The notes under the pieces: generated by a model
The model's input: the letters and a program-made list of their open reading frames with translations, nothing else
Told to the model about the DNA's origin: nothing
Database searches by the model: none
Source: Bacteroidales bacterium
GTDB taxonomy: Bacteria; Bacteroidota; Bacteroidia; Bacteroidales; P3
Length of the DNA stretch: 33,872 nucleotides
NCBI GenBank assembly: GCA_017480145.1
Contig: JAFVBF010000038.1
Coordinates: forward strand, 1 to 33,872
Reading direction: 5' to 3'
Made by a program: the position numbers and the translations under genes
Shown here: positions 1,801 to 25,264 of the stretch, piece after piece
Numbering within the stretch: the stretch's first letter is position 1
Layout of the letters: every line of letters begins with the position of its first letter

Positions 1801-3309
1801 CTACTTCCTGAAGAAGGTTCTGAACACCCACCCCCTGAGACTATTGGGCATTGCCACCTGCACAGTCCATCGTGCCACTACATTGTAGAGATATTGCGGA
1901 TAGGTGAGCATGCCGTTTTCGTACATATATCGGGCAAGGGCTTTCTCGCTCTTGTAGTACAGGCGACCTCCACGACGGGCGTACATATCCTTACCCACCC
2001 GCACATTGACAAGAACACTCGAAAGGTTGCCCATCAAGCAGCCTCCCAACGCCATGCGAACCCAGAGATAGAGATCCTCATCGTAATGCCAGGGCTGATA
2101 GTTGCCCACACGAAGTACGGCCTCCTTACGAAACATGACCGTCATGTGGTTGAACGGGCATCGACGGCGCATGTATTGTTTTATATCCTGATCCAAACAG
2201 GGCACTTCGCGTCGGGCAACGATATGAGTCGCTTCGCCAATAAACTCCGTAATCTGTCCGCCTACAATGTCCACTTCTGGGTGCGCCTCCAAGAAGTGGA
2301 GCTGTTGCTCGAAGCGAGTAGGTTGGCAGATGTCGTCGCTGTCCATGCGTGCCACGAGGGCTTGCGAACAGTTCTCCACAGCCACACGAAGCGCCTCACC
2401 AAGTCCTTTATTTTCTAACAGTCTGATTATTACCCCCCCCGAGCAGATAGACATATATTTCTCTATCACGGCATCAATGGCCTCAGGTACGGGTCCATCG
2501 ACCACGAGCACCCACTCCGTGGGCTTCACGGTCTGATTGACCAACACGCTTTCCAGCGCCCAATCGAAGTATTCGGGATTGTCTTTTCCATAGACCGACA
2601 TCGCCAGCGAGAAGGGTGTGTCGGCAACATTGCTTGATGTATTCATAGCAGGTTCGTCTGTTACGATGGGTTCGTCGCGAAGCAGAGAAAAAAGATGTTT
2701 TCGCACACTTTGGGGTGCCAGGACTTCGCCGCCTAACCGCTTGGCGACATTCCACGCATAGCGCCCCACGCCGATGTCCCCTTGTCGAAGCATGTATCGT
2801 TGCAACTTTGCCTCGCTGCGGAAGTAGCGCCAACCGCCACGACGGCCGTACATCTCTTCTCCGACGCGGGCATCGACCAACACCTGCGGCAGGTTGCCCA
2901 TCGGCAAATGGGCTTCGGCCAAGCGAAGCCAGAGGTAGTAGTCCTCGTTGCAATACCATTCGCGAAAACCTCCGACCGCGGCAACCCTTGCCTTGTTGAG
3001 CATGGCAGTCATCATATTGATTGGACTTCGACTGCGAAGCGTACGGCAGATGCTTTCGTTGTCGGTGGGTACCCGTCGGGAACAGCGCGGATGCGCTGGG
3101 TCGGCTTCGAACTCGTTGATTTGTCCTCCGAACGCAGCCACTTCGGGATGGGCGGCGACATAGGCCATCTGCAAGGCAAACCGATTGCGGCGGGACACAT
3201 CGTCACTATCCATATATGCCACCCAAGGATAAGAGGCTGCTTCCAGCCCGGTCTGTCGTGCTTTGGCATGGCCTTGGTTGACAGACAAGCGTTCAACTTG
3301 TATATTCAT
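1801..3309 (-). CDS. Two-domain family 2 glycosyltransferase, first domain N-terminally short
   Basis: Cytoplasmic glycosyltransferase of 502 aa with two tandem GT2 (GT-A fold) modules. Module 1 covers about residues 1-215 and carries AYMDSDDVS as its DXD site. Module 2 starts near residue 230 (SLAMSVYGKDNPEYFDWALE) and carries ARMDSDDIC. Each ends in the same pattern (MYGRRGGWRYF / MYARRGGRLYY). Module 2 has ~93 residues before its DXD site and module 1 only ~37, so module 1 lacks its nucleotide-binding strand. The frame stays open upstream to a TAG near 3402 but has no better start and no recognisable GT2 start. An 8-bp G tract (C8 at 2433-2440 on the plus strand) lies in module 2 at SGGVII and is in frame here. 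A change of one base would truncate module 2. Sugar specificity cannot be told. Confidence 0.85.
   Translation of the reverse strand: MNIQVERLSVNQGHAKARQTGLEAASYPWVAYMDSDDVSRRNRFALQMAYVAAHPEVAAFGGQINEFEADPAHPRCSRRVPTDNESICRTLRSRSPINMMTAMLNKARVAAVGGFREWYCNEDYYLWLRLAEAHLPMGNLPQVLVDARVGEEMYGRRGGWRYFRSEAKLQRYMLRQGDIGVGRYAWNVAKRLGGEVLAPQSVRKHLFSLLRDEPIVTDEPAMNTSSNVADTPFSLAMSVYGKDNPEYFDWALESVLVNQTVKPTEWVLVVDGPVPEAIDAVIEKYMSICSGGVIIRLLENKGLGEALRVAVENCSQALVARMDSDDICQPTRFEQQLHFLEAHPEVDIVGGQITEFIGEATHIVARREVPCLDQDIKQYMRRRCPFNHMTVMFRKEAVLRVGNYQPWHYDEDLYLWVRMALGGCLMGNLSSVLVNVRVGKDMYARRGGRLYYKSEKALARYMYENGMLTYPQYLYNVVARWTVQVAMPNSLRGWVFRTFFRK
2433..2440 (-). repeat. Poly-G tract (8), in frame, inside GT2 gene
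   Basis: Eight G on the coding strand followed by TA, reading TCG GGG GGG GTA. The gene is open across it, so this is the ON length. It has the same G-run-then-TA shape as four other tracts in this window and is a candidate slipped-strand site. Confidence 0.6.
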
Positions 3310-3425
3310 TATATATAAGAGTTCGAAGTATGGTTTTTTGGGGGTGTTATGCTCGGCCGCTACCCTTTCACATGAAGGAAAAACTCGTATCGAATGTACC
3401 TAAGGATTCGTTGTTCCTGTGAAGT

Positions 3426-4254
3426 TTAGTCCTGCTTCCTCACAATCTCTTCCTGCATCAAAACGGTAGACAAATTGTACAACAGACGGTGACTCGAACT
3501 TCGCTTCTTTATTCCGTTGCGAAAGGGATAGAGCCCCTTGACCAGCGGCCATATCAACGGATGGTAGACCACGTGGAGTCGGCAATAGGCATAGCGAAAG
3601 TTGAGCACACGACATAGAAAGTCCTGATAACCGGTCTGATGGCGCAAGTTTCGCTCGCCATCGCATATGTAGCGGAAGTGGCGCTGGTTGAGGTAGTAGT
3701 CGCAGAGTTGGTAGGCCACGGCTGCGTTCACCTCCAGCTTCATGAACCGTTCGGGCACCTTCACCACCGAGAGGTGTACCATGTCTGCTTGTGGATGGCA
3801 GATGGCATAGCCGCAAAGCTGGCCTGTGGCCTTCTCGCGACACAGCCAGAAGTCGCCCTTCTCACTACAGACTGATTGTGTAAAGCGATCGTGCTCCAAC
3901 TGCGGCCGGTAGGACTCTGGATATTCGGCAAAGGCTTCGACGGCTATCAGATAGATCTCGTCGGCCAACTCGGGCGAGACAGCATCCACCTTGCACACCT
4001 CCACATTCTCCAAGCCGCGACGAACGCGGTAGCGCTGCTTGGCCTTCAACTCGTCGAGACTCACCGGTGTATCGCGGAGGCAATACCACCATTCTCGGCA
4101 GGCATCGTCGTCAAAATGAGAAGTGTAGCGTACGAAGTACCCCCCCCCTACGAATCAGATAGCCAGCAAGTTGCTTCTTGCTTACGGCGTCTCGGTTCTC
4201 GTCGGGCGTCCCGCTGGGTATCCAAGCCCCTTGGTATTTCTGAAGTGCTATCAT
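3426..4254 (-). pseudogene. GNAT-type acyltransferase, out of frame at a 9-bp poly-G tract (candidate phase-variable gene, OFF)
   Basis: The reading frame starts at ATG 4254, overlapping the TGA of the upstream polymerase (TGATG). It is interrupted at a run of nine G (4140-4148) and then stops at 4111. With eight G the frame continues as RRGGYFVRYTSHFDDD into LRDTPVSLDELKAKQRYRV and runs to TAA 3426, giving exactly 275 aa. The C-terminal part resembles the GNAT/FemAB-like acyltransferases common in Bacteroides capsule loci, which probably acylate an amino sugar (family inference). It sits between Wzy and the tandem GT2 of operon A, transcribed with them. The downstream ATG at 4064 could at most give an N-truncated product of 212 aa. 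I judge this to be a switchable gene caught OFF. A basecalling error in the homopolymer is the main alternative. Confidence 0.8.
4140..4148 (-). repeat. Poly-G tract (9), frame-breaking
   Basis: Nine G on the coding strand followed by TA, in the GNAT gene. Eight G would restore the 275-aa frame (CGT AGG GGG GGG TAC). It is one base longer than the ON length. Confidence 0.8.
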
Positions 4255-5528
4255 CACGTGTGAGAGTTCGTTGAACGGTTCAGATTCATTGTCATGGCAA
4301 TAATGATGATGAAAGGCAACACGGAAATCCATGTGATGCCCTTAAACTCGAATACAGCAAAGAGCAGGCTTATGGTCACGAAGAGAAAGCGGCGATGGCG
4401 GCTGATGTTCCAAATGCCAATAAGTACGCTGAGGTACACGATGAGGCAGGCCGGGAGTCCCCCAAAAAGCGAGAGGCGCATGAAGCCCAAGTCGGTACGC
4501 ATATAATATGAGTGGGTTACAGGGTCGGTGAAACGTCCGTCGCCGATGGCCAAGGTCTTTGCCGGTGGCATCCACAGCATGCGGTGCGTCATGGTTTCGA
4601 ACGAGCCGCTCTCGGTGGTACCCGTTGTCAGCAATTCTACGACGGGTCGTGTGGCCCATTCGTAGGTGGAGCTGAAATCCTGGTTGACCGCAAAGAGGAG
4701 ACGAATCAGCAACACAAGGAAGGCAACAATGATGAGAATGGTGAGCATCAGGCGCAGATTAATCTTTCGATACCACATCGCAGCCAAGGCGGTGATGACG
4801 ATGGACGTCACCAGACCGCTACGCCCATAGAAGAAGTTGCCGATGAGCATGACGGCCGCCAGCAGGGTGTAGAACGTCGACCGACGCTTCGAGCTGAGAT
4901 AGAAGCAGAAGATGATGCCCATCGAGCAGGCGATGGTCGACCGAAAGCCGGCAAAGCCATCGATGCTGACGCGGTTTTGGTAGCCGTAGCTCTCGAAGAG
5001 GTCTATTCGTTCGTTGTAGATGAAACTCAGCCAAAAACTCTTGAAAGAAGGGAAGATGGCCAGCAGGAGGGTGAAGCCGATGTAGTACACATTGGCCAAG
5101 ATGAAGTAGTGCATGAACCTCTCTTCGTAGGGAATGCTGCTGTTGGGGTACATCTTGAGTAGCACTACGACGAGAAACATGTACCGGATGAGGGTGCGGA
5201 ATGGGCCGGCGATGGTCCAGAAGAAGCTCCAGTCGTTGCTGTTGTTGAGAGCGATGGTAAGCACCGACCACACCATCAGCAGCAGGAAGCCCACCAGAAA
5301 CACCACTCCTTCTCGCCGCTGCAGCACGCCCAGGAGCTTCCGCAGATAGGAAGGGTTGGCGAGAAGATAGAGGATGGGGATGCCGTAGGTGACGGCATAG
5401 GAGAACGCCACGAAGCCATTCACCAGAAAGGGGTGGACAAAGTAGAAGAACAACAGCGAAATCCACAACCCTTTCCGATCACGGACGGTTGCGCTGGCCT
5501 TCACAGATGCAGTGGAAACCGGACTCAT
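4254..5528 (-). CDS. Wzy-like O-antigen/capsule repeat-unit polymerase
   Basis: Integral membrane protein of 424 aa with about ten to twelve hydrophobic segments, beginning after a short polar N-terminus (LWISLLFFYFVHPFLVNGF) and ending in LLFAVFEFKGITWISVLPF. The long, more polar loop around residues 275-340 (DFSSTYEWATRPVVELLTTG) fits the large periplasmic loop of O-antigen polymerases and O-antigen ligases. I name it Wzy by topology, length and position, because these proteins have little conserved sequence. It lies between the CDP-glycerol-transferase-like gene (3 bp gap) and the GNAT gene (1-bp TGATG overlap), so it is part of operon A. It would polymerise lipid-linked repeat units on the periplasmic side. 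A WaaL-type ligase is possible but less likely, since operon A has no other polymerase. Confidence 0.8.
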   Translation of the reverse strand: MSPVSTASVKASATVRDRKGLWISLLFFYFVHPFLVNGFVAFSYAVTYGIPILYLLANPSYLRKLLGVLQRREGVVFLVGFLLLMVWSVLTIALNNSNDWSFFWTIAGPFRTLIRYMFLVVVLLKMYPNSSIPYEERFMHYFILANVYYIGFTLLLAIFPSFKSFWLSFIYNERIDLFESYGYQNRVSIDGFAGFRSTIACSMGIIFCFYLSSKRRSTFYTLLAAVMLIGNFFYGRSGLVTSIVITALAAMWYRKINLRLMLTILIIVAFLVLLIRLLFAVNQDFSSTYEWATRPVVELLTTGTTESGSFETMTHRMLWMPPAKTLAIGDGRFTDPVTHSYYMRTDLGFMRLSLFGGLPACLIVYLSVLIGIWNISRHRRFLFVTISLLFAVFEFKGITWISVLPFIIIIAMTMNLNRSTNSHT

Positions 5529-5531
5529 GTC

Positions 5532-6731
5532 TTACACTCCAGCTTTGAGATCGTTGAATATGCGCTCGCTGTTATGGGTGTCGTAGAAGGGGAACAGGCG
5601 GCGGTGCTCGGCCAGGTAGGCCTCGTCGACGGCGCAGCGCTCCTGCACCATGCGCGCTATTTCCTGCACCACGTCGTCTTCCGCGTCAAAGGTCTTCCCA
5701 AAGGGATTGTTGTGGTAGTCAAAGTAGCCTTGTCCGTATTGGTACTGGCGATATTTCTCTTCGTCGAACTGATAGAAGACCACAGGCTTCTTCATGTAGA
5801 CCATGTCGAAGAACACGCTGCTGTAGTCGGTCACCATGAGGGCCGACGTCTTCAGGAGGTCCTGGATGTCGTAGTCGCGCCACGAGGCCACCTTGACATA
5901 GGACGGAAGGTCGGAAAAGTAATGGATATAGGGCTGCATGTTGTGGTGAGGATAAAAGAGCACCTCCAACTGCTCGCGTTCGGCCAAGGCTCGCAACTGC
6001 GGATGTTGCAGCAGCGAACGCCACCGTTCGAGGTATTCCGAATGCTCCACATCGCCATCGGCATCGCTGTGCCGCTTGCTGGGCAGGCGGAACCAATAGC
6101 GCCAGGTGGGCATCACCAACAATTGGCGGGGATGCACGTCAACCTCGTGCAACGCATCCATGCGCGGCATGCCCGTCAGCCTCACCGTTCCCTCGGGATA
6201 GCCAAACTGACGACGGATGAAGGCGGCCTCGTCCGTGGTGCTTGTCACAAAGTAGTCAATACGTGATACATTGGAATACAACCACTTAACATCATTGATT
6301 GTGATCCCGTGTTGCAGAAAAATGTTCTTCACCTGTACGAGACCTTGCAGCTCCAAAAACGCGCAAAAGGCCGCATTGGGCTTGCCCCCTTTGGCAGAAC
6401 TGATATTGTAGCGGCAGCAGAGGAACATCAACCAATGTCGCAACGAGCCGTATTCCACCACATCACCCAAATCGGCCACACGCCGGAACTCGGGCGAGCT
6501 CCGACGGATGGCATAGCGGCAGCGAATCTCGGGATGCGTCTGCCGCAGGTAACGGAAGAAGTGGTAGCCGTTGTCGTGCGCCTCCATAGGCTCCTCGCAC
6601 ACCAGCCACAGGTCGGCATACCGCCTACGACCCATCGGCCGTAGCACTTCGGCGAGCAGAAAAGGAAAGAGATGAAGCATGTCCCGCACCTTTACGTCGC
6701 GCAGGCGGTTGAAAAAATAGCTTAGATTCAT
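5532..6731 (-). CDS. CDP-glycerol glycerophosphotransferase family protein (TagB/TagF-like)
   Basis: A 399-aa protein of the CDP-glycerol:poly(glycerophosphate) transferase family, whose known members transfer glycerol phosphate, ribitol phosphate or similar units from a CDP donor to a lipid-linked glycan at the cytoplasmic membrane face. Seen: FLQHGITINDVKWLYSN near residue 150, TGMPRMD, a long middle stretch with LEVLFYPHHNMQPYI, and the C-terminal signature MVTDYSSVFFDMVYMKKPVV followed by YGQGYFDY. These include the His and Asp/Ser positions conserved in TagF. Start ATG 6731; the upstream GT2 gene ends 294 bp away. In Bacteroidetes such genes occur in capsule loci and may add phosphate-bridged or other substituents. 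The actual donor is unknown, and no CDP-glycerol synthesis gene is visible here. Confidence 0.85.
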   Translation of the reverse strand: MNLSYFFNRLRDVKVRDMLHLFPFLLAEVLRPMGRRRYADLWLVCEEPMEAHDNGYHFFRYLRQTHPEIRCRYAIRRSSPEFRRVADLGDVVEYGSLRHWLMFLCCRYNISSAKGGKPNAAFCAFLELQGLVQVKNIFLQHGITINDVKWLYSNVSRIDYFVTSTTDEAAFIRRQFGYPEGTVRLTGMPRMDALHEVDVHPRQLLVMPTWRYWFRLPSKRHSDADGDVEHSEYLERWRSLLQHPQLRALAEREQLEVLFYPHHNMQPYIHYFSDLPSYVKVASWRDYDIQDLLKTSALMVTDYSSVFFDMVYMKKPVVFYQFDEEKYRQYQYGQGYFDYHNNPFGKTFDAEDDVVQEIARMVQERCAVDEAYLAEHRRLFPFYDTHNSERIFNDLKAGV

Positions 6732-7025
6732 TGTCTTTTTACGTGAGAAGCCGTCGGCTTCGAAAAGAAAAAAAAATTGGAGCTGTTGCGACAGCGCTTT
6801 TCTGCAAGGCGGCAGGACGCCGAGGCTTCAAGGCTGTCGGTTCACCTTCTTTTGCAGGTGTGTGCCGACCCCGATTCCTCGCCCGCGCTCAAAGCGCAGC
6901 ATGAGGGTCATCTTGATGCTTCCTCGCACAGCATATTTCAGCCCCATTCGGCTTTCGCCTTGCAGGAGTGCACGCCGTCCGACGCCATCGAAAACCAAGG
7001 GAACGGAAGAAGCCGCCCCAAAGCG
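6732..7025. other. Gene-free gap between two operon A genes
   Basis: 294 bp between the GT2 stop and the TagF-like start. It has no convincing reading frame, no clear promoter and no strong hairpin. Several oligo-A runs lie close to the downstream start. An internal promoter cannot be excluded. Confidence 0.5.
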
Positions 7026-8018: not shown

Positions 8019-8029
8019 GTAGTGATTAT

Positions 8030-9115: not shown

Positions 9116-10635
9116 CGATTCTTTGTTTTTATCATTAAACGAATGGCCGCCCTGTTCTCCTTGGTCAGTCCTACAAAGTAGGCCAGCAAGCAATAGGTTG
9201 GCAAAAACACAGCAAGCGAAACCAAGAAACGGCTCGCTCCAGATCTGTTCACAGCGAAAAGGCACGTTGCGCCACCGACAATAATGGATACGACCAGCAC
9301 GGGAAGCAATACCTTCTGAGCAAAAAGCCTGAGCCCAAGTCCGGTCAGCTTCCTGACAAAAAGCATGCGCACGACCATATAGTAGAAGCATAAGCATACC
9401 TTGATGAGGAGTACGCTGGTCGGCGGAGCCCCGCAACAAAGCGCCACGTAGGAGAAAATCACATTCAGAAACATGACGCAACTGATGGTGATTTGATATT
9501 TCTTGATGTTGCCTGTGGCCTGCACGGTCATCCACAGCGGCGCCGTCAACGATTCCACCAAACTATATATCAATATCAGAATGCAGAAGAAACTTGTGTA
9601 GGCTGGTACGTTTTTCAACCATATTGCCAGCACAAAGTCCATATTCAGCACCAACGGGAACACAATGGCAAAGAGCAGGAGATACGACAGTTTTGAGGTG
9701 GTGTAGATCAGATCATGCAATCGGGACACATCGTCGCCGGCATACGTCTTCACTATTTGTGGCCGAAAAGCTATTTGAAAATTCGAGACAAACTGGTTGA
9801 CGGCGGCACTTACCTGATGCGAGATGCCATAGGCTGCGTTCACCTTCACACCGTAAAAGAGATTGAGCAAGATGTTCAGCCCCTGGTCGGCCGCCATGGA
9901 CGAAGCGGCACCAAACAAACTCCAGCCCGAAAACGAGAGCAGCTGCTTGAACAAGCCCTTGTCTTGCACGCGGCGAATCTTGGACGCCTCGAAAGAACGG
10001 AAACAAAACGCGCAAAACAGCAGAAAAACAACGACGGAAATGATTAACCGGTTGACGGCATACACCTTCAACCTATCGCCGCCAAGCCAGACGAGCGAGA
10101 AGGCATTCAGCAACATCAGCAAGACCTCAGCTATGGCCAGCCAGGCAAAGAAGGACATCTTTTCATAGGCTACAACCATCGCCTCAAAGGGCGTTTTCAA
10201 CATGTTTATGGCCAAGGAAGCAACGGAGACCTGAAAGACAAACTGCACTACCCCCAGGCGACCCTCGGGCACCTGCATCTTCTCATTCACAAAATATATG
10301 CCTACGGCCTCAATCACTATCACCAGCAGCACTACCAGCAAGAGATAGATCTTCAGACTTAAATTGAAAACGGAGCCTACTCGCTCTGTTTCATTGCTCT
10401 TTCCTAACTCATAACTGATGAAACGTTGTGTTGCCGTGCCGAGAGGATTGCTTATAAAAGTGAAAGCAACAATGAAAGAAGCAACGACATTGTAGATACC
10501 GTAGTCGTCGTCCCCCAGCGCACCAAGCACAATACGCGACGTGTATAGCGACACAAGCATGGTAATGCCCATCCGCGCATACATATACAACGTATTCTTC
10601 GCAATGCGTTTATTTGAAGACTCAATAGCTGACAT
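9112..10635 (-). CDS. Wzx-type oligosaccharide flippase (operon A)
   Basis: A 507-aa membrane protein of the MOP/Wzx (polysaccharide biosynthesis protein) superfamily, which moves undecaprenyl-linked repeat units across the inner membrane. The N-terminus IAKNTLYMYARMGITMLVSL and YTSRIVLGALGDDDYGIYNV is typical of Bacteroides flippases. About twelve to fourteen hydrophobic segments follow, including SFSGWSLFGAASSMAADQGL mid-protein and the closing VSLAVFLPTYCLLAYFVGL. It is the first gene of operon A. Start ATG 10635 is followed by an acidic/polar start (SAIESSNKR). It stops in an ATGA overlap with the pyruvyl transferase. A second, unrelated-looking flippase of the plus-strand block begins at 12643, so the window holds two complete export sets. 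Confidence 0.92.
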   Translation of the reverse strand: MSAIESSNKRIAKNTLYMYARMGITMLVSLYTSRIVLGALGDDDYGIYNVVASFIVAFTFISNPLGTATQRFISYELGKSNETERVGSVFNLSLKIYLLLVVLLVIVIEAVGIYFVNEKMQVPEGRLGVVQFVFQVSVASLAINMLKTPFEAMVVAYEKMSFFAWLAIAEVLLMLLNAFSLVWLGGDRLKVYAVNRLIISVVVFLLFCAFCFRSFEASKIRRVQDKGLFKQLLSFSGWSLFGAASSMAADQGLNILLNLFYGVKVNAAYGISHQVSAAVNQFVSNFQIAFRPQIVKTYAGDDVSRLHDLIYTTSKLSYLLLFAIVFPLVLNMDFVLAIWLKNVPAYTSFFCILILIYSLVESLTAPLWMTVQATGNIKKYQITISCVMFLNVIFSYVALCCGAPPTSVLLIKVCLCFYYMVVRMLFVRKLTGLGLRLFAQKVLLPVLVVSIIVGGATCLFAVNRSGASRFLVSLAVFLPTYCLLAYFVGLTKENRAAIRLMIKTKNR

Positions 10636-10815
10636 ACAGGCTTCCTCTCATTTCGTCAACGACCTTCTCACGTTCTCGAACACCCTCTGCTGCCATTCAA
10701 AAGAACAGGAAAGTGCTGTCATTACTGCTAAAGAATTGATCACGAACACAAACCACAATTGAATTGCTCAAGCACCTTGCGGATATTATTTATGCCAACA
10801 ACAGAACTTAATTCA
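10636..10815. other. Leader region upstream of operon A
   Basis: 180 bp between the flippase start and the 23-bp repeat array. No gene is visible. This is where the operon A promoter should lie on the minus strand, but I find no exact Bacteroidetes TTTG / TAnnTTTG pair. An AT-rich stretch with a TTTG lies near 10747-10752. Confidence 0.35.
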
Positions 10816-11114
10816 GATGTACATCTGAATAGCATTGTGATGTACATCTGAATGGTATTGTGATGTACATCTGAATAGCATTGTGATGTACACCTGAATG
10901 GCATTGTGTCGTACATCTGAATGGCATTGTGATGTACATCTGAATGGCATTGTGTCGTACAACTGAAAAGTATTGAGTTGCCCAACTGAATGGCATTGTG
11001 TCGTACATCTGAAAAGTATTGTGTTACCCAACTGAAAGGCATTCAGATATACATTAGAGCCAGATTATGATGTATATCTGAATATGATTAAGATGTGCAT
11101 CTTTATGCAACCCA
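10816..11114. repeat. Array 1: 13 tandem 23-bp units with a palindromic core
   Basis: Unit starts occur exactly every 23 bp at 10816, 10839, 10862, 10885, 10908, 10931, 10954, 10977, 11000, 11023, 11046, 11069 and 11092. The best-conserved unit opens GATGTACATCTGAATGGCAT. Its first ten bases, GATGTACATC, are a perfect palindrome. Units are most alike at the left and decay rightward, and the last ends in ATGCAACCC, as does the last unit of array 2. The array lies between the divergent operons, so it is a candidate regulatory or recombination element. There are no spacers, so it is not a CRISPR. No function is known to me. Confidence 0.95.
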
Positions 11115-11221
11115 GATACAGGCTTTAACTATATAGAGTTGTATCCCGAAAAGAAATTCTAATCCTATACGCGGCCGACCTTAAGTGGAACCTGTCGCCA
11201 ACGTAAATGACATAACCTACG
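11115..11221. other. Short intergenic stretch between repeat array and inverted-end element
   Basis: About 107 bp with no reading frame or structure that I can support. Confidence 0.5.
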
Positions 11222-11589
11222 CCAATGCAACAGCCCTGCCACTCACATTCTGCAAGCGCATACTTAACTTTTGAAGTGCAAAAGTACAACTAATTTCAGG
11301 AATGACAAAATCAAACGACTTTACATGTTTGTTTGAAGTGTCTTTTGTTTGAATAAACATTTGTTTACATGCTTTTTCTGGTGTGACCATTTGATGAGTT
11401 CTTCTTGGTTTGGTGTAGCGGATATGAGTAGTAATGCAAAACCATCAACAAATCCGAACAAATTGAAATATAGATTTAACACATGGCTAAGATGTATTTG
11501 TACAGAGTCCTACATAAAGATTTAATGTTTGCACTTCAAAAGCAAACTCAAATGCCAATACAATGTGAGTGGCAGGGCTACTGCATTGG
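11222..11589. mobile_element. ~368-bp MITE-like element with imperfect terminal inverted repeats
   Basis: The left end 11222-11249 matches the reverse complement of 11562-11589 with two mismatches over 28 bp (shared core AGCCCTGCCACTCACATT). A second matching block, CTTTTGAAGTGCAAA, lies at 11268-11282, with its exact reverse complement at 11528-11542. The arms are thus ~61 bp, with near-equal spacing between blocks. The ~245-bp interior has no gene. I see no clear target-site duplication; the matched arms may even extend a few bases outward (AACC / GGTT). It could be a non-autonomous transposon remnant or an insertion footprint. The right arm ends 22 bp before the GT2 start, so it may supply the promoter. 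It also marks the switch to AT-rich DNA. Confidence 0.6.
11497..11531 (+). promoter_or_regulatory. Weak candidate Bacteroidetes promoter
   Basis: TTTG at 11497-11500 and TAATGTTTG at 11523-11531 resemble the Bacteroidetes -33 TTTG and -7 TAnnTTTG boxes. The spacer (22 nt) is slightly long and the -7 box has one extra base. It lies in the right arm of the inverted-end element, pointing at the GT2 gene 80 bp away. Confidence 0.25.
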
Positions 11590-11611
11590 TGGTTGAAATA
11601 GAATTAAGATT

Positions 11612-12595
11612 ATGGAAAAAGTATCTGTAATAGTACCTGTATATAAGGTTGAAAAATACATTAGACGGTGTGTGGATTCGATAGTGCTGCAAACATATAA
11701 GAATATTGAAGTTATACTCGTTGACGATGGCTCACCAGACCAATGTGGTGATATATGTGATGATTATGCAAATAAGTATTCATATATTAAAGTCATACAT
11801 CAAGAAAATAGAGGACAAGCTGCGGCGCGCAATACTGGAGTATCTTTCTCTACAGGAGATTATGTTACTTTTGTGGACTCTGATGATTTTATTACAAGTG
11901 ATTATGTCGAAACTCTTGTAGGTTTAGTTTCTCGTTATGGTACAGACGTGGCTATTGCTGGTTTTGTATATCAGTATGAAGATAAACCCATCAAACATTC
12001 ACTTTCCAATATTGATGAGGGCTTTATGTCAACAGAAGATGTACTGAGAAGTATGAACTATGGTAGCAGAGGAATGGGGTGCATTGCTTGTGTAAAATTG
12101 TATAGAAAAAAGTTGTTGGAACAATATCCTGAACCCGAAGGTAAGATCTATGAAGATCTTGCTACGACATATAAAATAATAGGAGCAGTAGACAAAGTTG
12201 CATGGAGTAGCAAAAAAATATATTATTGGATGCAGCGTAAGGGAAGCACAATGCATAGTATGTTTGATAGCAAACATCTGTATGGTTTGACAGCTGCTCA
12301 AGAACAAATAGAATACTTAAAGACATATTATCCAACGTGTGTGTTATCAGGGAAAGCAAGATATATGGGAAAGATTGCAGAGTTGATGTCTATTGTATTA
12401 CATAGCAGTAACGGCAGAGACAGAAAAGATAATTATTTTTTATTAAGAGATAGAATGATATATTATGATGATGTAATGACGGATCCATTAGTAAAAAGAA
12501 CTCAAAAAATTAGATTGATGAGCATAAAAAGTGGATATTGGTTATCAATGGCTGTTTTTTATATGCATGAATCCATAAAAAAAAGGCGGAATTAA
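11612..12595 (+). CDS. Family 2 glycosyltransferase (AT-rich block)
   Basis: A 327-aa GT-A glycosyltransferase acting on a lipid-linked sugar at the cytoplasmic membrane face. It has the standard start VSVIVPVYKVEKYIRRCVDS, the nucleotide-binding VILVDDGSPDQCG near residue 38, the acceptor-loop NRGQAAARNTGVSFSTGDYV, and the metal-binding FVDSDDF near residue 92. EPEGKIYEDLATTY follows as the catalytic acidic region. The tail is basic. It is the first gene of the plus-strand block, beginning 22 bp after the inverted-end element and 48 bp before the next start. Codon use is distinctly AT-rich compared with operon A, which suggests a different origin. Sugar specificity is unknown. Confidence 0.92.
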   Translation: MEKVSVIVPVYKVEKYIRRCVDSIVLQTYKNIEVILVDDGSPDQCGDICDDYANKYSYIKVIHQENRGQAAARNTGVSFSTGDYVTFVDSDDFITSDYVETLVGLVSRYGTDVAIAGFVYQYEDKPIKHSLSNIDEGFMSTEDVLRSMNYGSRGMGCIACVKLYRKKLLEQYPEPEGKIYEDLATTYKIIGAVDKVAWSSKKIYYWMQRKGSTMHSMFDSKHLYGLTAAQEQIEYLKTYYPTCVLSGKARYMGKIAELMSIVLHSSNGRDRKDNYFLLRDRMIYYDDVMTDPLVKRTQKIRLMSIKSGYWLSMAVFYMHESIKKRRN

Positions 12596-17063: not shown

Positions 17064-18281
17064 ATGACAAACTACGATTTATATCTTGAGAAAGTCCGTG
17101 CAATGGGCATGGATTACCGTTGGGCAGGAATGTTCGTAAAGAAGTTACGTGACGATGAAGCAGCATTTCATGTGAGTGATTGGGAACAAAAGCGCTGGGC
17201 GATGGAACGTGGATTCTATCCTGGCCGGATCGAACTATATGGGTTAACGGAGGACAACTACCATAATTATATGCCCGATTTTCAGTACTTCATGCTTCAT
17301 CCTTTGAACAACCATTTCCTAAAATGGTTGGATAAAACAACGTTAAAATATGTACTCAACAGCAATGGATGCGAGGCTTTGATGCCAGAATATTACGTCT
17401 ATGTTGAAAACGATCTCTGTGGTGGTCGCTTCACCTACCTTATGGATTGTCCGACAGACATTCCTAAAGATGAAGATTTTCTGTGGCATCTATTGGAACG
17501 GAAAGGGATGCTGGCTATGAAGCCCAATTCGGGAACTTCGGGTGGATTGGGGTTCATCAAGATGGAACTGCGGGATGACGGATTGTATGAGAATAACAAG
17601 CCCATTGATCGTGCACGTTTCAATGAGATTCGGGATACAATGCGGAACTACATTGTAACTGAATATTGCCCTCAACATCATGCCTTGCGTGCTATATGGC
17701 CCGATAGTGAATGTACCTTGCGTGTGATTATGTGCAAGGATGTACCTTCGAATCGCTATACCAAAACATCGTGGACATGTGCTGTCTCTTATGCCCGATT
17801 TGGTACGGCTATCAACGGCGGAGCCAGCAATCTCTCGGCTGGGGGTGTGGGCGTTGGTTTCGACTTTGAGACTGGCAAAATGGGAGACTTCTGTATCCGA
17901 TTCAAACGTTATACCCCGGACGGCCAGATACGCTTGTTGCATCATCCCGACTCTGGGTATGTCTGGAAAGACAACAGCCTTCCCAATTGGACATATGTAC
18001 GACAGCAAATCCTACATCTTTGCCAACATATCTCCTCGTTGGACTACCTGGGCCTTGACATCATCATTACGGAGGAGGGCTTGAAACTCTGCGAAATCAA
18101 TTCTCATCCGGCTTGCGACTATGAGCAGATTATGTGTGGGCCTATGTTGCAAAACAATAATGTGCGCAGATTCTTTGAAAACAAGGGACTACATAGATTT
18201 GATAGCCTTTGTAACGGGGGGGGTATCAGGCATTTACAGAGTCGCAAATTTAACCACAAGGTTCAATCTTTGGCAGCATGA
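17064..18281 (+). CDS. Sugar-transfer-associated ATP-grasp protein, poly-G tract near its C-terminus
   Basis: A 405-aa ATP-grasp protein of the sugar-transfer-associated type seen in many capsule loci. Seen: YGLTEDNYHNYMPDFQYFML, NSNGCEALMPEYYVYVEND, LAMKPNSGTSGGLGFIKME (ATP-binding Lys and Gly-rich loop, ~residue 155), IVTEYCPQHHALRAIWPDSE, TLRVIMCKD, GGVGVGFDFETGKMG, and GLKLCEINSHPACDYEQI (metal-binding Glu/Asn). Such proteins probably join a carboxylate to an amine, but substrates are mostly unknown. Near the end is a run of eight G (18216-18223). At eight the protein ends NGGGIRHLQSRKF... and its TGA overlaps the PIG-L start as ATGA. Seven or nine would change the C-terminus and break that coupling. 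Confidence 0.85.
   Translation: MTNYDLYLEKVRAMGMDYRWAGMFVKKLRDDEAAFHVSDWEQKRWAMERGFYPGRIELYGLTEDNYHNYMPDFQYFMLHPLNNHFLKWLDKTTLKYVLNSNGCEALMPEYYVYVENDLCGGRFTYLMDCPTDIPKDEDFLWHLLERKGMLAMKPNSGTSGGLGFIKMELRDDGLYENNKPIDRARFNEIRDTMRNYIVTEYCPQHHALRAIWPDSECTLRVIMCKDVPSNRYTKTSWTCAVSYARFGTAINGGASNLSAGGVGVGFDFETGKMGDFCIRFKRYTPDGQIRLLHHPDSGYVWKDNSLPNWTYVRQQILHLCQHISSLDYLGLDIIITEEGLKLCEINSHPACDYEQIMCGPMLQNNNVRRFFENKGLHRFDSLCNGGGIRHLQSRKFNHKVQSLAA
18216..18223 (+). repeat. Poly-G tract (8) at the 3' end of an ATP-grasp gene
   Basis: Eight G then TA, read AAC GGG GGG GGT ATC. The eight-G frame ends in ATGA overlap with the next gene. Nine G would stop near 18250. Seven G would run on to about 18351 inside the PIG-L gene. 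Confidence 0.65.
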
Positions 18282-18937: not shown

Positions 18938-18956
18938 ATCGGAACTGTTCTATCTT

Positions 18957-19700: not shown

Positions 19701-19750
19701 TATCATATTGCAGGAGACATACTCTTGATGCATAATCTGTCATAAGGAAC

Positions 19751-20908
19751 ATGGACTATTCAAGGATAAAGGTATTGGTGACTGACGGCGGTGCACGCCA
19801 AAGTTTGACCCTGTTGCACGGACTGAAAGACTTAGATTGCCATATTGCTGTACTTTGCTCATCGAAGCTTGATGTGTGCTATGCCAGCAATATTCCACAC
19901 GAGAAGATACTCCTTCCACATGCGGCAGGCTCAGATGCAGACTTCGAAGCAACTCTGTTGGAGCTGTTGCGGAAAGGGGACTACGATGTTCTGCTGCCTG
20001 TTGCCGAAATGACAACAAATAAGGTTACCTTACACGAGGATGAGTATCGCCAATATACGCGATTGGCATGTGCTCCGCGTGCAGCTTACATTCAAGCTGG
20101 CGACAAGCAATTGACTTTCGAACATGCAGCCAACATCGGTATGCCAGCCCCAAAAACACGCCGGTTAGGTCAGACGGTCGACGACTTTCTGTCCTTGGTG
20201 GAGTTCCCTTTGATTATCAAGCCACGCACGGGTATGGGGTCGATAGGATTTCATAAGTTTAAACGTCGTGAGGACTTCTATCCTTATGTGGAAGAGCATG
20301 GGATAGACCTTGACAAATATGTCTTACAGGAGTTTGTGAAGCACGAAAAACGGTTGGGGACCATACTCTTTGTCGATCGCGATGGGCAAGTGTGTATGCA
20401 ATATGCCGATGAGGTGCTGCGATGGTATCCGCTTGATGCAGGCACTGCATCGCTTATCCGAAGTATTGATGCGCCACAGTTGCTTGCCGACTCGTCACGG
20501 CTTTTGCAGGCCATGCAGTGGCAGGGAGTGGCCGCTCTGTCGTTCATGGTTGAGGAGGAGACAGGCACGGCCAAACTGCTTGAAATAAACGGTCGCATTC
20601 CGGCCAGCATCAAGCTCAGTTGGCAATGTGGATTCAATGTAGCCAAGCTCTTGGTGCAGATGGCAATGGAGGAAAAGGTGGATGCCTATCCCCCCAATAC
20701 GGTGTTCGGCCAGTGTACACGCCATTTTCTTGCCGAGATACCATGGGTATTCAAGTCGCCCGATCGGTTTCGTAGCCGTCCGTCGTGGTTCAGTTGGAAA
20801 AACACATCTGACGTGGTCTGTTGGTCGGGTGATCCTAAGCCTGCCATGGCCTATGCTGTGCGCAAGATGGTGGGATACAAGGAAAGCATGAACAAACGTC
20901 GTCATTGA
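19751..20908 (+). CDS. ATP-grasp ligase, paralogue of the gene at 22431
   Basis: A 385-aa CarB/PylC-type ATP-grasp protein. These activate a carboxylate as acyl phosphate and join it to an amine or other nucleophile. Seen: N-terminal Rossmann-like IKVLVTDGGARQSLTLLHGL and HIAVLCSSKLDVCYAS, VLLPVAEMTTNKVT, PLIIKPRTGMGSIGFHKFKR (ATP lysine and Gly loop, ~residue 155), YVLQEFVKHEKR (adenine-side residues), and AKLLEINGRIPASIK (Mg-binding Glu and Asn, ~residue 280). A clear start site AAGGAAC lies 5 bp before ATG 19751. It shares close family resemblance, including SWFSWKNT near the end, with the protein at 22431. The two flank an MmgE/PrpD gene. The substrate is unknown; a lipid-linked or nucleotide sugar amine is possible. 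Confidence 0.85.
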   Translation: MDYSRIKVLVTDGGARQSLTLLHGLKDLDCHIAVLCSSKLDVCYASNIPHEKILLPHAAGSDADFEATLLELLRKGDYDVLLPVAEMTTNKVTLHEDEYRQYTRLACAPRAAYIQAGDKQLTFEHAANIGMPAPKTRRLGQTVDDFLSLVEFPLIIKPRTGMGSIGFHKFKRREDFYPYVEEHGIDLDKYVLQEFVKHEKRLGTILFVDRDGQVCMQYADEVLRWYPLDAGTASLIRSIDAPQLLADSSRLLQAMQWQGVAALSFMVEEETGTAKLLEINGRIPASIKLSWQCGFNVAKLLVQMAMEEKVDAYPPNTVFGQCTRHFLAEIPWVFKSPDRFRSRPSWFSWKNTSDVVCWSGDPKPAMAYAVRKMVGYKESMNKRRH

Positions 20909-20925
20909 TCTGACAAGGGTAAACC

Positions 20926-22359
20926 ATGGGACTCACAACGCAACTGTCGGCCGAACTGGTCGCCATCGACCAGCTGACCGACCGAGACCGGGAACGGCTA
21001 CAAGTGCTGGTGCTCGACTTCATTGCTGCGGCTTATGCAGGCTATCGGGTGAACTACGAGTTCAACCGTGTTGTGGCGAATGTGATGCTGGGGCAAGGTG
21101 GACGAACCGAATCTGCAGTGTTCCTGTCGGAGGTACGCTTGCCGGCCGAGAGGGCTGCTTTCTTGAATGCCCTTTATGGTCACGGAGCCGACCTCGACGA
21201 CGGACACAAGCGGGCCATGGGCCATTGTGGTGTGCATGTGATACCGGCCGTGTTTGCCCTGGCAGAGGCAACGGAAGCGCGAAACGAAGAGGTTCTGCGG
21301 GCCCTTGCAGTGGGATATGAGGCCTATGTTCGTCTGTCGTCGGCGGCACAGCCGGGCATGGTTGAGCGGGGATTTCACTCCACCGGTATGGCCGGCACTT
21401 TGGCTTGTGCAGCGGCATGTGGCCGACTGCTGGGCTTGGACGTCGAAGGCATGGAGAATGCCATAGCAGTGGCGACCACATTGTCGGGAGGCTTGCTGTC
21501 GTACGGCGATTCGCGACCAGCCGTGAAGCCGTTGAATCCAGCGCATGCTGCCGCCAATGGATTGTTTGCCGCGCGGTTGGCAGCCGACGGAATACGTGGG
21601 CCAGAGGCTGCCTTGGAAGGCCCAAACGGTTGGTTCCATGCAGTGACCGAACGCTACAATGCCGGCTTGCTGAGAGGCAAAGATCACCTGCTTCTGCACG
21701 ACTGCTATCTGAAATTATGGCCTTCGTGTCGGCACACGCATTGCTGCATCGATGCCGCTCTTCGGCTGCGCCGACGGCTTGGAGACGGGGTTCTGACGGC
21801 CGAAGCCGTGGACTCAATTCGCGTCTGCATCTATCCCAATGCCATCAAACTGGCCGGACAGATACGGTATCCTCAGGAGGCGGACCAGACTAAGTTTTCC
21901 ATCCACTACACCCTGGCAACGGCACTGCTGCGCGGCAACTACGGCATCGAAGACCTGCATGCTCTGGTGCGGGGAAGCGATGTGGAACGACTGATAGACA
22001 AGATAAGGCTCGAACCCGACGTCGAGATGGAGGATAGTGCTCGCGGCATTCGAGGCGCTCGGGTGGAGCTGACGATGGCCGACGGACGGAGAATGGAGGA
22101 GACGGTGCTCTCGCCCAAGGGCGACCCAGAGGTGCCGCTGAACTACAGTGATGTGGTGGAAAAGTTGAAGGCTTGTTCCCAGGGAATAGCCGGGCCCAAG
22201 GCATTGCAACGCCACATAGACCGTGTAGAGCGGCTGGCTCTGTCGGCCCGGTTTTGCAACCCATTGGGGATTGCGACGGACAAAGAAATACGGACAGAAA
22301 AGCACAATGATATGAATGTAAACATTTTACCCCCCCAGTTTACAGATGTAAACAACTAA
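20926..22359 (+). CDS. MmgE/PrpD family protein (first copy)
   Basis: A 477-aa member of the MmgE/PrpD superfamily, which includes 2-methylcitrate dehydratase, cis-aconitate decarboxylase and iminodisuccinate epimerase. These act on small tri- or dicarboxylic acids in the cytoplasm. Seen: LVLDFIAAAYAGYRVNYEF, LYGHGADLDDGHKRAMGHCG (catalytic Asp-Asp/His region, ~residue 88), EVLRALAVGYEAYVRLSSAA, MVERGFHSTGMAGTLACAAA, KPLNPAHAAANGLFAARLAA, LKLWPSCRHTHCCIDAALRL and TKFSIHYTLATALLRGNYGI. Between two paralogous ATP-grasp genes, with spacing of 17 bp upstream. Its C-terminal end (after ~residue 455) looks foreign to the family and contains a 7-bp C tract at 22330-22336. One extra C would lengthen the frame to a TAG at 22425, three bases before the next ATG. 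Confidence 0.88.
   Translation: MGLTTQLSAELVAIDQLTDRDRERLQVLVLDFIAAAYAGYRVNYEFNRVVANVMLGQGGRTESAVFLSEVRLPAERAAFLNALYGHGADLDDGHKRAMGHCGVHVIPAVFALAEATEARNEEVLRALAVGYEAYVRLSSAAQPGMVERGFHSTGMAGTLACAAACGRLLGLDVEGMENAIAVATTLSGGLLSYGDSRPAVKPLNPAHAAANGLFAARLAADGIRGPEAALEGPNGWFHAVTERYNAGLLRGKDHLLLHDCYLKLWPSCRHTHCCIDAALRLRRRLGDGVLTAEAVDSIRVCIYPNAIKLAGQIRYPQEADQTKFSIHYTLATALLRGNYGIEDLHALVRGSDVERLIDKIRLEPDVEMEDSARGIRGARVELTMADGRRMEETVLSPKGDPEVPLNYSDVVEKLKACSQGIAGPKALQRHIDRVERLALSARFCNPLGIATDKEIRTEKHNDMNVNILPPQFTDVNN
22330..22336 (+). repeat. Poly-C tract (7) at the 3' end of the first MmgE/PrpD gene
   Basis: Seven C on the coding strand preceded by TA, so G7TA on the other strand. It lies in the opposite orientation to the other tracts relative to the gene. 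Eight C would extend the frame to TAG 22425-22427. A short inverted repeat GTTTAC-AGAT-GTAAAC follows directly at 22338-22353. Confidence 0.45.
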
Positions 22360-22430
22360 GAATAAGCCGTTTGGCTGCGGCCAAACGCACCGCATTGTTG
22401 TCCCACCCAACCCTCAAAGCGGCATAGGTC

Positions 22431-23618
22431 ATGGAACAACAAGCAAGAACGACGTCGCCGTTGGACTTCGCGCAACTGCGTGTCCTTGTGATGGACGGTG
22501 GTGGCAAACAGACGCTGGCCATGGTGCGAGGGTTGAAGGAATTGGGCTGCCATGTGACCGTGCTTTGCAGCACCCGATACGACACCTGCTATGTGAGCAA
22601 CAAGCCCGACGAAAAACTGCTCAATCCGAACCTCGTGGAGCGCAACGAGGAGACCCTTCGCTACCTGCTTTCGCTGGTCGAAGGGGGCTCATACGACGTG
22701 TTGATGCCTATTGGGGAGCTGAGTACGAACTTCGTTACCTCACACGAGAACGAGTTGCTGCCCCACGTCAGGTTGGCCTGCGCTCCCCGAGAGGTCTACA
22801 TTCGCGCCTTCAACAAGCAGACCACGTTTGACCAGGCCATGGCGTCAGGCATACCCTGCCCCTATACGCGCCACAGCTCGCAACCCATAGAGGACTTTCT
22901 GGCAAAGGCCACGTTTCCCATCATCGTCAAGCCTCGACAGGGGTTGGGCTCCATCGGCTTCCACAAGTTCGAGACCGAAGCCGAGTTCCGCACACGGATG
23001 GCCGCCCCCGACTTTGATGTGGACGACTATGTGGTGCAGGAGTTTGTGCGGTTCGAGAACCGAATTGGCACCAATCTGTTTGTCGACCGACAGGGACGCA
23101 TCTGCACTTCATACGCGGTCGACGTCACCCGTTGGTTTCCCATCGACGCCGGCGCCGGTGTGCTCATCCAGACGGTCGACGCCCACGAGGTGTTGGCCTA
23201 TGCCGGCCGCCTGCTGCAGGATCTCGGTTGGCAAGGCTTCGCCAATGTAGCCTTCATGATAGACTGTCAAACGGGCGAACCTCGCCTGCTGGAAATCAAC
23301 GGACGCATCCCGGCCAGCGTCAAGATGGCCTACCTTTGTGGTTGCAACGTGTCGCGGCAATTTCTGGAGATGATATTCGACCAAGAGGTGACAGCCTATC
23401 CCGAAAACCAGAGCTTTGGCATGTACATCCGTCACTTCGACACCGACCTTGCGTGGTTTCTTCATTCCAAGGACCGCTTTCGTGCCCATCCTTCGTGGTT
23501 CAGTTGGAAAAACACGCAAGAGATTCTCTTCAGCCGCGACGACCAGCGTCCCTTTTGGTCGCATCTCATGCTGAAAGTGTTCCACTACCGAGAGACCATG
23601 CAGCGCAAAAAGCACTGA
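22431..23618 (+). CDS. ATP-grasp ligase, paralogue of the gene at 19751
   Basis: A 395-aa ATP-grasp protein clearly related to the one at 19751: both share DGGGKQTLAMVRGLKELG-like starts, VLCSTRYDTCYVSN, an MPIGELSTNFVTSHENE equivalent, and PRQGLGSIGFHKFETE (ATP loop). They also share YVVQEFVRFENRIGTNLFVD, LLEINGRIPASVKMAYLCGC (metal site) and HPSWFSWKNTQEIL. By eye about half of residues match. It begins about 70 bp after the stop of the MmgE/PrpD gene and only 3 bp after the stop its longer frame would use. The duplication around a PrpD gene suggests two related ligation steps or two related acceptors. Its end is followed by the second 23-bp repeat array. Confidence 0.85.
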   Translation: MEQQARTTSPLDFAQLRVLVMDGGGKQTLAMVRGLKELGCHVTVLCSTRYDTCYVSNKPDEKLLNPNLVERNEETLRYLLSLVEGGSYDVLMPIGELSTNFVTSHENELLPHVRLACAPREVYIRAFNKQTTFDQAMASGIPCPYTRHSSQPIEDFLAKATFPIIVKPRQGLGSIGFHKFETEAEFRTRMAAPDFDVDDYVVQEFVRFENRIGTNLFVDRQGRICTSYAVDVTRWFPIDAGAGVLIQTVDAHEVLAYAGRLLQDLGWQGFANVAFMIDCQTGEPRLLEINGRIPASVKMAYLCGCNVSRQFLEMIFDQEVTAYPENQSFGMYIRHFDTDLAWFLHSKDRFRAHPSWFSWKNTQEILFSRDDQRPFWSHLMLKVFHYRETMQRKKH

Positions 23619-23733
23619 ACCGTTCGTGTTGTCGACCCGTGCACAGGCAGAGGACAAGGCGGCGAAAAGCCTTCTTGTCGTTACCATCGACCAATACGCA
23701 ATAAGACAGACAAATAGGGCTCAATGCAACTCA
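23619..23733. other. Gap before repeat array 2
   Basis: 115 bp without a gene or a structure I can support. Confidence 0.4.
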
Positions 23734-23917
23734 GATGCCCAACGGAAGCGAACCGAGATGTACACCAGAATAGCATTGAGATGTACATCAGAATGGCATT
23801 GAGATGTACATCAGAGTAGTATTGAGATGTACATCTGAATGGCATTGAGATGTACATCAGAGTAGCATTGAGATGTACATCAGAGTAGCATTGAGATGCA
23901 CATCTCGATGCAACCCC
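23734..23917. repeat. Array 2: eight tandem 23-bp units, same family as array 1
   Basis: Clear units start at 23757, 23780, 23803, 23826, 23849, 23872 and 23895, preceded by a degenerate one at 23734. Most open with the palindrome GATGTACATC then AGA or TGA and end with ATTGA (array 1 units mostly end ATTGT). The last unit is changed and ends GATGCAACCC, as does the last unit of array 1. Same period, same polarity, same terminal sequence as array 1, nearly 13 kb away. It lies 55 bp upstream of the HU-like gene. Confidence 0.95.
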
Positions 23918-23971
23918 TCTCCGCAACCTCGCAACCCAAACCAATAAAACATTATAAAACAGAGACACAGT

Positions 23972-24523
23972 TTGGCTTATTATCGCAAGCGCGCCATCGT
24001 CATCAACCGTGGCGAAGAGAAAGAAAAACAGAAGTGGATGCCAGCCGTGGCGTCCGTGAGTTCCGTCAGCACTCGCAAGCTGGCCTCAGACATCGAGAAA
24101 GAGAGCACCGTCAGCATCGCCGACATCATGGCAGTACTCTACGCACTGCCGGGCGTAGTGCGTCGTTACCTGGCCGAAGGCCACACCGTCAAGCTGGACG
24201 GCATGGGCACTTTCCGCCTCAGCATCCAATGCCAAGGCACGTTGGTGGATAGCGAGGAGGCCGTCACACCCGACCAGATTACGAACATAAAGGTGCAGTT
24301 TGTGCCCGAAATGCAGACGCCGGCCACCGGACGGAAAGGGAAGCGAGTGAACACACTCATAGCCTCAGACATGGAGTGGCACGAGCTGCCGCCCAAAGCC
24401 AAGAAGGCTTCAGCCGAGACCGACGGCACGTCGAGTACCCCCTCGGGGTCGACTGGCGGCTCCACGGGAAGCGGCTCGGGCTCTGGCAACGGAGGCGGAA
24501 ACAACGACAACGGTTTCTCCTAA
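23972..24523 (+). CDS. HU-like DNA-binding protein with Gly/Ser-rich tail
   Basis: A 183-aa Bacteroidetes HU-family protein. The first ~125 residues follow the family layout: MAYYRKRAIVINRGEEKEKQ, SVSTRKLASDIEKESTVSIA, DIMAVLYALPGVVRRYLAEG (helices), HTVKLDGMGTFRLSIQCQG (beta arm), and PDQITNIKVQFVPEM. A disordered tail rich in Ser, Gly, Thr and Asn follows (TGSGSGSGNGGGNNDNGFS). The start appears to be TTG at 23972, because the MAYY start of relatives aligns there and no ATG is near. Such HU-like genes are common next to capsule loci in Bacteroidetes and may act on local DNA. Array 2 lies 55 bp upstream, so this protein is a candidate partner of the repeats (inference). Confidence 0.85.
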   Translation: MAYYRKRAIVINRGEEKEKQKWMPAVASVSSVSTRKLASDIEKESTVSIADIMAVLYALPGVVRRYLAEGHTVKLDGMGTFRLSIQCQGTLVDSEEAVTPDQITNIKVQFVPEMQTPATGRKGKRVNTLIASDMEWHELPPKAKKASAETDGTSSTPSGSTGGSTGSGSGSGNGGGNNDNGFS

Positions 24524-24602
24524 AAAGCCCCAACGGCGACGCTCCGATGCGGACTCAAAACCACTCTTCCTCTGAAGCCGCCCCCATCGGCACGGCCATT
24601 GT

Positions 24603-24635
24603 CCCCACGCTTTTGCCCTCGGCAAAAGCGTGGGG
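24603..24635. terminator. Perfect 15-bp hairpin, terminator-like without a T-tract
   Basis: 24603-24617 (CCCCACGCTTTTGCC) pairs perfectly with 24621-24635 around a 3-base loop CTC. It is placed 80 bp after the HU-like stop and ~50 bp before the acetyltransferase start. It has no run of T on either side, so it may be a Rho-assisted or attenuating structure, or a remnant of a small repeated element. Confidence 0.6.
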
Positions 24636-24683
24636 CAACGCCCGACATCATCTCCCTTCTACCCTCAAACCTACACACGTTCC

Positions 24684-25264
24684 ATGGACATTAAACGATA
24701 CTATTATTCATTGGTGCTGCATCTTTTGCCGAGTGCAAGCAAGCGCACCGAATATGTGAGACGCAAACAGCTCTTCGGCCAATTGGGCGAACGCTGCCAC
24801 CTCCAGTCACGCAAACTCCCCCTCTATGCCAACCTCATCCACCTTCACAACAACGTGAAGTTGGCCTCCAATGTAGGCTTTGTAACGCATGACATTATTC
24901 ATAAAATGCTGAATGATATTGATTTGCAAAACCGGGGGGGTATTTAGAAAAGATAGGATGTATTGAGATAATGGACAACGTGTTCATCGGCTCTGGAACT
25001 CGAATCCTGTATGGCGTACGCATAGGGTCGAACGTCATCGTCGGGTCAGGCAGTCTGGTGAACAAAGATGTGCCCGACAACTCGGTCGTAGCAGGAGTGC
25101 CGGCCCGACGCATCTGCAGCTTCGACGAATACCTGGCCAAGGCAACGGCCTACAGCGAAGACTTCAGACAGCGCTATGGAATCAGCCGACTACACGGAGT
25201 GAGCGACGCTCTGGCTCAGCAACTCTATGCAGACTTCTGCGCTGCAAAGGAGAAAAGCGAATAG
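24684..25264 (+). pseudogene. Hexapeptide-repeat acetyltransferase, out of frame at a 7-bp poly-G tract (candidate phase-variable gene, OFF)
   Basis: The reading frame starts at ATG 24684 (MDIKRYYYSLVLHLLPSASK), runs through LHNNVKLASNVGFVTHDIIH (catalytic His) and stops at TAG 24947 just after a seven-G tract (24934-24940). With eight G it reads QNRGGYLEKIGCIEIMDNVF into FIGSGTRILYGVRIGSNVIV and SVVAGVPARRI, ending at 25264: exactly 193 aa, a normal length for left-handed beta-helix acyltransferases of capsule loci. These use acetyl-CoA (or another acyl-CoA) to O- or N-acylate sugars. The split products are each incomplete: the N-terminal part holds the catalytic His, the C-terminal part the helix coils. 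A basecalling error in the homopolymer is the alternative. Confidence 0.85.
24934..24940 (+). repeat. Poly-G tract (7), frame-breaking
   Basis: Seven G then TA in the acetyltransferase gene. Eight G would restore CGG GGG GGG TAT and the full 193-aa frame. It is one base shorter than the ON length. Confidence 0.8.

Follow-up and report, generated by a model that had tools for sequence, protein, structure and literature searches.

Switching of genes by slippage at poly-G tracts is a known kind of genetic switch, and passages of one study describe a poly-G of 7 nucleotides (nt) in pldA of Helicobacter pylori as phase variable (PMC2831843). Slippage was proposed from sequence for capsule-related genes of Akkermansia muciniphila, one carrying (G)8 and an acyltransferase gene carrying (C)10 (PMC3048395), and the available passages of that paper hold no experiment on these genes. 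DNA inversion is the usual explanation for surface variation in Bacteroidales, both in general understanding and in the available passages of PMC3090145 and PMC11868660, and in the polysaccharide (PS) locus I/9 of Bacteroides fragilis an acetyltransferase is frameshifted through one additional C at a run of 4 C, for which the authors suggested slippage (PMC3090145). We analyzed a complete contig of 33,872 bases (G000:C30), called the window throughout, from a metagenome-assembled genome (MAG, G000) of a Bacteroidales bacterium; five poly-G tracts lie in this window, and two of them coincide with frame changes, in a GNAT-like transferase gene and in a hexapeptide acetyltransferase gene. The most likely single reading of the sequence would be slipped-strand poly-G switching of these two genes, and possibly of a GT2-type glycosyltransferase gene, to which we give slightly less than an even chance because the genome-wide contrasts are weak and the tract lengths come from one assembly. 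The window is thus a candidate for this kind of switch in a Bacteroidota lineage for which the matches listed from the open-access literature (titles and abstract openings) include no report of poly-G phase variation.

The initial annotation of this DNA had described five homopolymers, each read as a G-run followed by TA on one strand, and all five are present (C8 at 2433-2440, C9 at 4140-4148, G8 at 18216-18223, C7 at 22330-22336, and G7 at 24934-24940), with TA following the G-run on the G strand in 5/5. The tracts and the genes around them are as follows.

1801-3309, minus strand: GT2 open reading frame (ORF) encoding two GT2 domains, the second complete and the first apparently truncated at its N terminus (by eye)
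2433-2440, minus strand: G8 tract, in frame, in this GT2-type glycosyltransferase ORF (PF00535)
3426-4139, minus strand: C-terminal part of the GNAT-like gene that is broken at its tract, open for 237 amino acids
4140-4148, minus strand: G9 tract in a GNAT/FemX-like transferase gene, at the position of a Gly-Gly, with the frame changing across it (family label by eye, without a Pfam match)
4149-4340, minus strand: region with the N-terminal piece of the GNAT-like gene, in another frame
17064-18281, plus strand: sugar-transfer-associated ATP-grasp gene (PF14397)
18216-18223, plus strand: G8 tract within the ATP-grasp gene, in its C-terminal tail, which is not conserved; a PIG-L deacetylase gene starts 55 nt further on
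22330-22336, minus strand: G7 tract antisense to the last codons of an MmgE/PrpD gene
24630-24933, plus strand: N-terminal piece of the hexapeptide acetyltransferase
24934-24940, plus strand: G7 tract, with a change of coding frame across it
24941-25264, plus strand: C-terminal hexapeptide-repeat piece of the acetyltransferase gene (PF00132)

Placement of the poly-G within the coding frame of glycan genes, as had been claimed, holds for the GT2, GNAT, ATP-grasp, and acetyltransferase genes and not for the tract at 22330-22336, on whose G strand no coding frame was recognized. Two coding tracts had also been called one base off, and the frame does change across the G9 of the GNAT-like gene and the G7 of the acetyltransferase gene, with the two frames one base apart in each case, while the GT2 and ATP-grasp genes read open through their G8.

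Alignment of the pieces makes a convincing case that the GNAT-like and acetyltransferase genes are broken exactly at their tracts. Against a single homologue (L225), the GNAT-like pieces align to residues 5-36 before the tract and 46-278 after it, with nine residues in between that correspond to the tract and its flank; the N-terminal piece is short, and its E value of 3e-4 was obtained against only ten homologues. The acetyltransferase likewise matches a single homologue (L224), at residues 4-80 with one piece and 93-171 with the other, and the tract falls where L224 has a different loop; L224 has one TGA within the wider match and none in the 580-amino-acid stretch aligned. Downstream of the tracts, the pieces remain open for 711 nt (GNAT) and 321 nt (acetyltransferase). 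Searches against solved structures gave no match for the acetyltransferase N-terminal piece or for the GNAT-like protein. The mark of a phase-variable locus, a frame change at the tract in an otherwise open gene, is therefore found in both genes. A comparable frame change occurs elsewhere in the genome at a G8 (L044:2499-2506), with 423 amino acids open before the tract and 496 after it in the other frame (1488 nt open downstream); judged by eye, this gene begins with a signal-like N terminus and contains adhesin-like repeats.

The coding tracts of the window exceed chance. From codon usage, 0.09-0.14 sense runs of at least 8 are expected in the window, which was picked after the fact, and two were seen in called genes (p 0.004-0.009) or three with the GNAT-like gene. 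When the codons of the listed ORFs were shuffled, at least two such runs arose in 13/2000 trials and three never did; the shuffled ORFs contain two of the three observed runs, as the GNAT tract lies outside them. In 33 long stretches of the genome (648,564 bases), codon shuffling predicted 1.8 sense runs of at least 8, and 2 were seen. Scaling from these stretches gives 5.2 for the whole genome versus 12 when called genes alone are counted (p 0.007) and 15 when genes recognized by eye are added; outside the window, called genes hold 10 versus 3.4 expected.

A census of the genome found 93 G/C runs of at least 7 (47 of length 7, 22 of 8, 20 of 9, 3 of 10, and 1 of 11) and 199 of length 6. TA follows 19/93 of these tracts, 5/5 in the window versus 14/88 elsewhere (p = 2e-4), but the motif was picked post hoc and one of the five tracts is antisense, and the TA flank does not hold up as a signature. 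Fifteen sense coding runs of at least 8 were identified, 12 in called genes and three by eye (GNAT, L069, and L105). The reading frame is kept at length 8 in six of them (GT2, ATP-grasp, L050, L065, L073, and L105), at length 9 in another six (L039, L042, L043, L047, L069, and L089), and at length 10, near a gene end, in L080; the remaining two are broken (GNAT and L044). As lengths 8 and 9 are in frame equally often, eight G is not a common ON length, contrary to the initial annotation, and neither its family of like tracts nor its count of 2^4 combinatorial states is supported. At another locus (L052:2524-2532), a G9 directly adjoins what looks by eye like the GTG start codon of a gene for an acyltransferase-like membrane protein.

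For the ATP-grasp gene, two orthologues, which are 69% and 61% identical and come from Clostridia MAGs, carry another short tail at this end, and since the tract lies in a tail that has no counterpart in them, the open frame read there is no guide to the natural one. These two relatives, found in the genome contigs searched, come from water-buffalo rumen and sheep rectum, and one is followed by a PIG-L-like gene (by eye); gene transfer is likely for ATP-grasp.

In the mechanism that we favor, replication slippage would alter the length of a coding poly-G tract, the altered length would shift the reading frame and turn a decorating enzyme on or off, and the glycan would change as a result. Frequent reversible length change, selection for it, and glycan alteration are inferred steps of this candidate mechanism. 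Slipped-strand phase variation, as first proposed for this DNA, remains plausible in view of the coding tracts, the two breaks at tracts, the open pieces on both sides, and the local excess, without the rule of eight and the TA flank that had been offered with it.

Several observations weigh against slipped-strand switching. No G/C run longer than 6 occurs in any of the 29 GNAT homologue loci (0/29), of which 11 were displayed at the tract site and the other 18 judged by longest G/C run only; Gly-Gly is kept at the site in 8 of the 11, encoded by GGC GGC in six, GGT GGG GGA in one, and GGT GGA in one. The GT2, ATP-grasp, and acetyltransferase homologues examined likewise have no tract at the homologous site, the acetyltransferase comparison being with one displayed locus of 29. 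It had been stated at the outset that relatives without a homopolymer at these sites would speak against switching, and this was found in part, as every homologous site that could be read has none. The tract lengths are read from one MAG assembly, the one genome found for its species; of the other tracts, that of ATP-grasp falls in a tail that is not conserved and that at 22330 is on the antisense strand. A contrast with A/T runs is suggestive of switching, though not significant. At A/T runs of at least 7 with coding on both sides, the frame is kept in 23/23; under the same thresholds, it is the same at 10 G runs and changed at 1 (the acetyltransferase), the same at 3 C runs, and changed at 14/3124 random positions. 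The GNAT and L044 breaks did not reach the thresholds and were assessed from alignments and by eye; counting them, breaks occur at 3/16 G tracts versus 0/23 A/T runs (p = 0.06), and at 3/40 versus 0/23 (p = 0.29) when 24 sense G7 runs in called genes are added. Hosts of sense runs of at least 8 are envelope or glycan genes in 12/15, which counts for switching, but this share is not clearly above the 12/23 for sense-G7 genes (p = 0.10), with labels that are our reading of Pfam matches and N termini; the set of 23 includes L042:7751-8326 and one gene that was not scanned. Equal frequency in housekeeping genes had been named as another outcome that would count against switching, and it too was found in part, since by the same labels 11/23 sense-G7 genes look cytosolic. 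Two kinase genes, one for an amino-acid kinase (L042) and one of RapZ-C/kinase type (L089), carry an in-frame G9; codon shuffling on the DNA around the tracts gives 8.9 expected versus 12 (p 0.18, an estimate biased upward), and strong coding on both sides of runs of at least 9, by one automatic threshold, was found for only 2/24 in this genome, 1/23 in G016 (of 24 runs), and 0/23 in G003 (of 29 runs).

Long poly-G is a trait of some species and lies mostly outside genes. The ratio of runs of at least 8 to runs of exactly 6 is 0.231 in this genome, the third highest of 71 in the genus sample and a point in favor of switching, with medians of 0.084 in the other 70 genus genomes and 0.060 in 47 genomes of other families. 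Two further G016 runs (L183 and L194) are open across by extent; over L183-L222, the poly-G runs of at least 9 of two relatives are mostly without coding on both sides and sometimes follow a T run. In G060 (contigs 3, 16, 17, 38, 39, 49, 55, and 80), 8/16 runs of at least 9 sit 66-118 bases from a contig start, which suggests that assemblies break, or acquire artefacts, at poly-G. The MAG studied here, 80.7% complete, is the sole one of 118 genomes in which no MutS-family protein matched at E 1e-20. The genes that lie beside mutS in relatives (rplI and rpsF, by eye) likewise had no match in the scanned part of the MAG, so that missing DNA would account for the absence of mutS as well as gene loss would. 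Loss of mismatch repair was considered as a general cause of the tracts and rejected: the eight genus relatives richest in tracts by run ratio (G003, G013, G016, G029, G041, G050, G060, and G062) keep mutS1 over the cut-off, and G021 and G054 are without mutS1 over the cut-off, yet not tract-rich.

The window also contains a strong candidate invertible promoter, at 11222-11589, with the anatomy of the usual Bacteroidales switch. This element is absent from the initial annotation.

11222-11249, no strand: left arm of a 28-nt inverted repeat (26/28 complementary)
11279-11309, minus strand: TTTG-N19-TAnnTTTG promoter motif within the repeat, facing the left-hand operon in this assembly
11562-11589, no strand: right arm of this repeat; the right-hand operon starts 22 nt further on

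Bacteroidales promoters carry a TTTG element. The inverted repeat, with a 312-nt loop, lies between divergent operons, the left-going one starting at 10635 and the right-going one at 11612, and inverted repeats thus flank a promoter motif beside a surface operon. It is the only repeat scoring at least 20 at a spacing of 100-700 nt in 682 kb, and one order-1 Markov control gave none. TTTG-N19-TAnnTTTG matches twice in the window versus 0.55 expected, and at least two matches arose in 9/100 shuffles. Allowing up to 7 mismatches, no other copy of the arm turned up in the 1.057 Mb of genome scanned, and no invertase was recognized by eye among the window ORFs, with no genome-wide search made for invertases. 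The TAnnTTTG promoter element of Bacteroidales is described in the available passages of PMC3090145.

Judging from this anatomy, inversion of the promoter at 11222-11589 probably switches transcription as well, and the two switches could act together, the invertible promoter picking an operon while poly-G tracts on both sides independently toggle acetyl- or acyl-type decorations to give a combinatorial surface; we regard this two-layer arrangement as unlikely. That promoter inversion alone is the functional switch of the cluster, with the poly-G tracts incidental, seems somewhat less improbable, given a repeat that is unique in the DNA searched and surrounds a Bacteroidales-type motif next to the right-hand operon; it would leave the coding breaks and the local tract excess unexplained, and it too is argued from anatomy, with no invertase recognized in the window.

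Ordinary one-off gene loss is a possible though doubtful alternative to slipped-strand switching. Here poly-G would drift up by mutation, mostly in non-coding DNA, and frameshifts fixed in dispensable glycan genes would fall at the tracts by chance, with switching unselected. Such drift accords with the 31/46 runs of at least 8 that lie outside called genes (at least 3 of them, GNAT, L069, and L105, read by eye as coding), with the agreement of the long stretches with expectation, and with the relatives, where long runs are also mostly non-coding and homologous sites have no tract. It sits poorly with the excess of sense runs in the window and in the called genes of the rest of the genome, and with downstream pieces that hold no further stops in all three broken genes. 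Assembly or sequencing error at homopolymers could also produce frame changes in a MAG of 86 contigs, and the aminotransferase ORF at the left end of the window appears, by eye, to change frame near the contig end without a tract; the absence of frame breaks at coding A/T runs, a contrast that is not significant, and a run spectrum with a surplus at 8-9 make error improbable as the explanation.

Glycosyltransferases, acyl/acetyltransferases, and weakly recognized flippase- and polymerase-like proteins make the window a surface-glycan region, in a MAG from an uncultured member of the Bacteroidota. Pfam matches include GT2 enzymes, ATP-grasp, PIG-L deacetylase, and hexapeptide acetyltransferase. 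A sugar-phosphate transferase is present too. The flippase- and polymerase-like membrane proteins match weakly, with scores far under the cut-off. The parent MAG has 1,908,897 bases and contains a PorZ domain above the cut-off and a Por_Secre_tail just under it, both indicative of the Bacteroidota; the tetranucleotide correlation of the window to the genome is 0.918 (long stretches: minimum 0.869, median 0.947), so its composition fits the genome. A phosphonopyruvate decarboxylase (TIGR03297, above cut-off) at 31224-32360, inside the glycan region, points to a possible phosphonate decoration. Near both contig ends, a 162-nt, 98% inverted repeat (861-1022 and 33709-33870) corresponds to the 5′ ends of two aminotransferase copies, and 23-nt tandem repeats with related units occur in two intergenic places (10741-11153 and 23682-23979).

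If slipped-strand switching is confirmed, glycan-decorating genes in this uncultured lineage would be controlled by poly-G slippage as a second layer, independent of DNA inversion, and tract lengths in metagenome reads would provide a simple read-out. The invertible promoters of Bacteroidales polysaccharide loci resemble the element described here in having inverted repeats around a TTTG/TAnnTTTG promoter beside a glycan operon, whereas the motif in the window is flanked by divergent operons and points to the left-hand one of the two, has no further copy of its repeat arm in the DNA scanned, and is a candidate recognized from its anatomy. PS locus I/9 of B. fragilis is alike in being a Bacteroidales polysaccharide locus with an acetyltransferase-related gene, but its run is very short and the difference is between strains. 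The poly-G/poly-C contingency loci of Campylobacter, Helicobacter, and Neisseria share coding poly-G, a frame change at the tract, and surface genes with the tracts studied here; in contrast to those loci, the runs here are mostly 7-9, mostly non-coding genome-wide, and known from the sequence of one assembly. A. muciniphila, a gut commensal, differs in phylum but is alike in carrying poly-G/C in capsule and acyltransferase genes.

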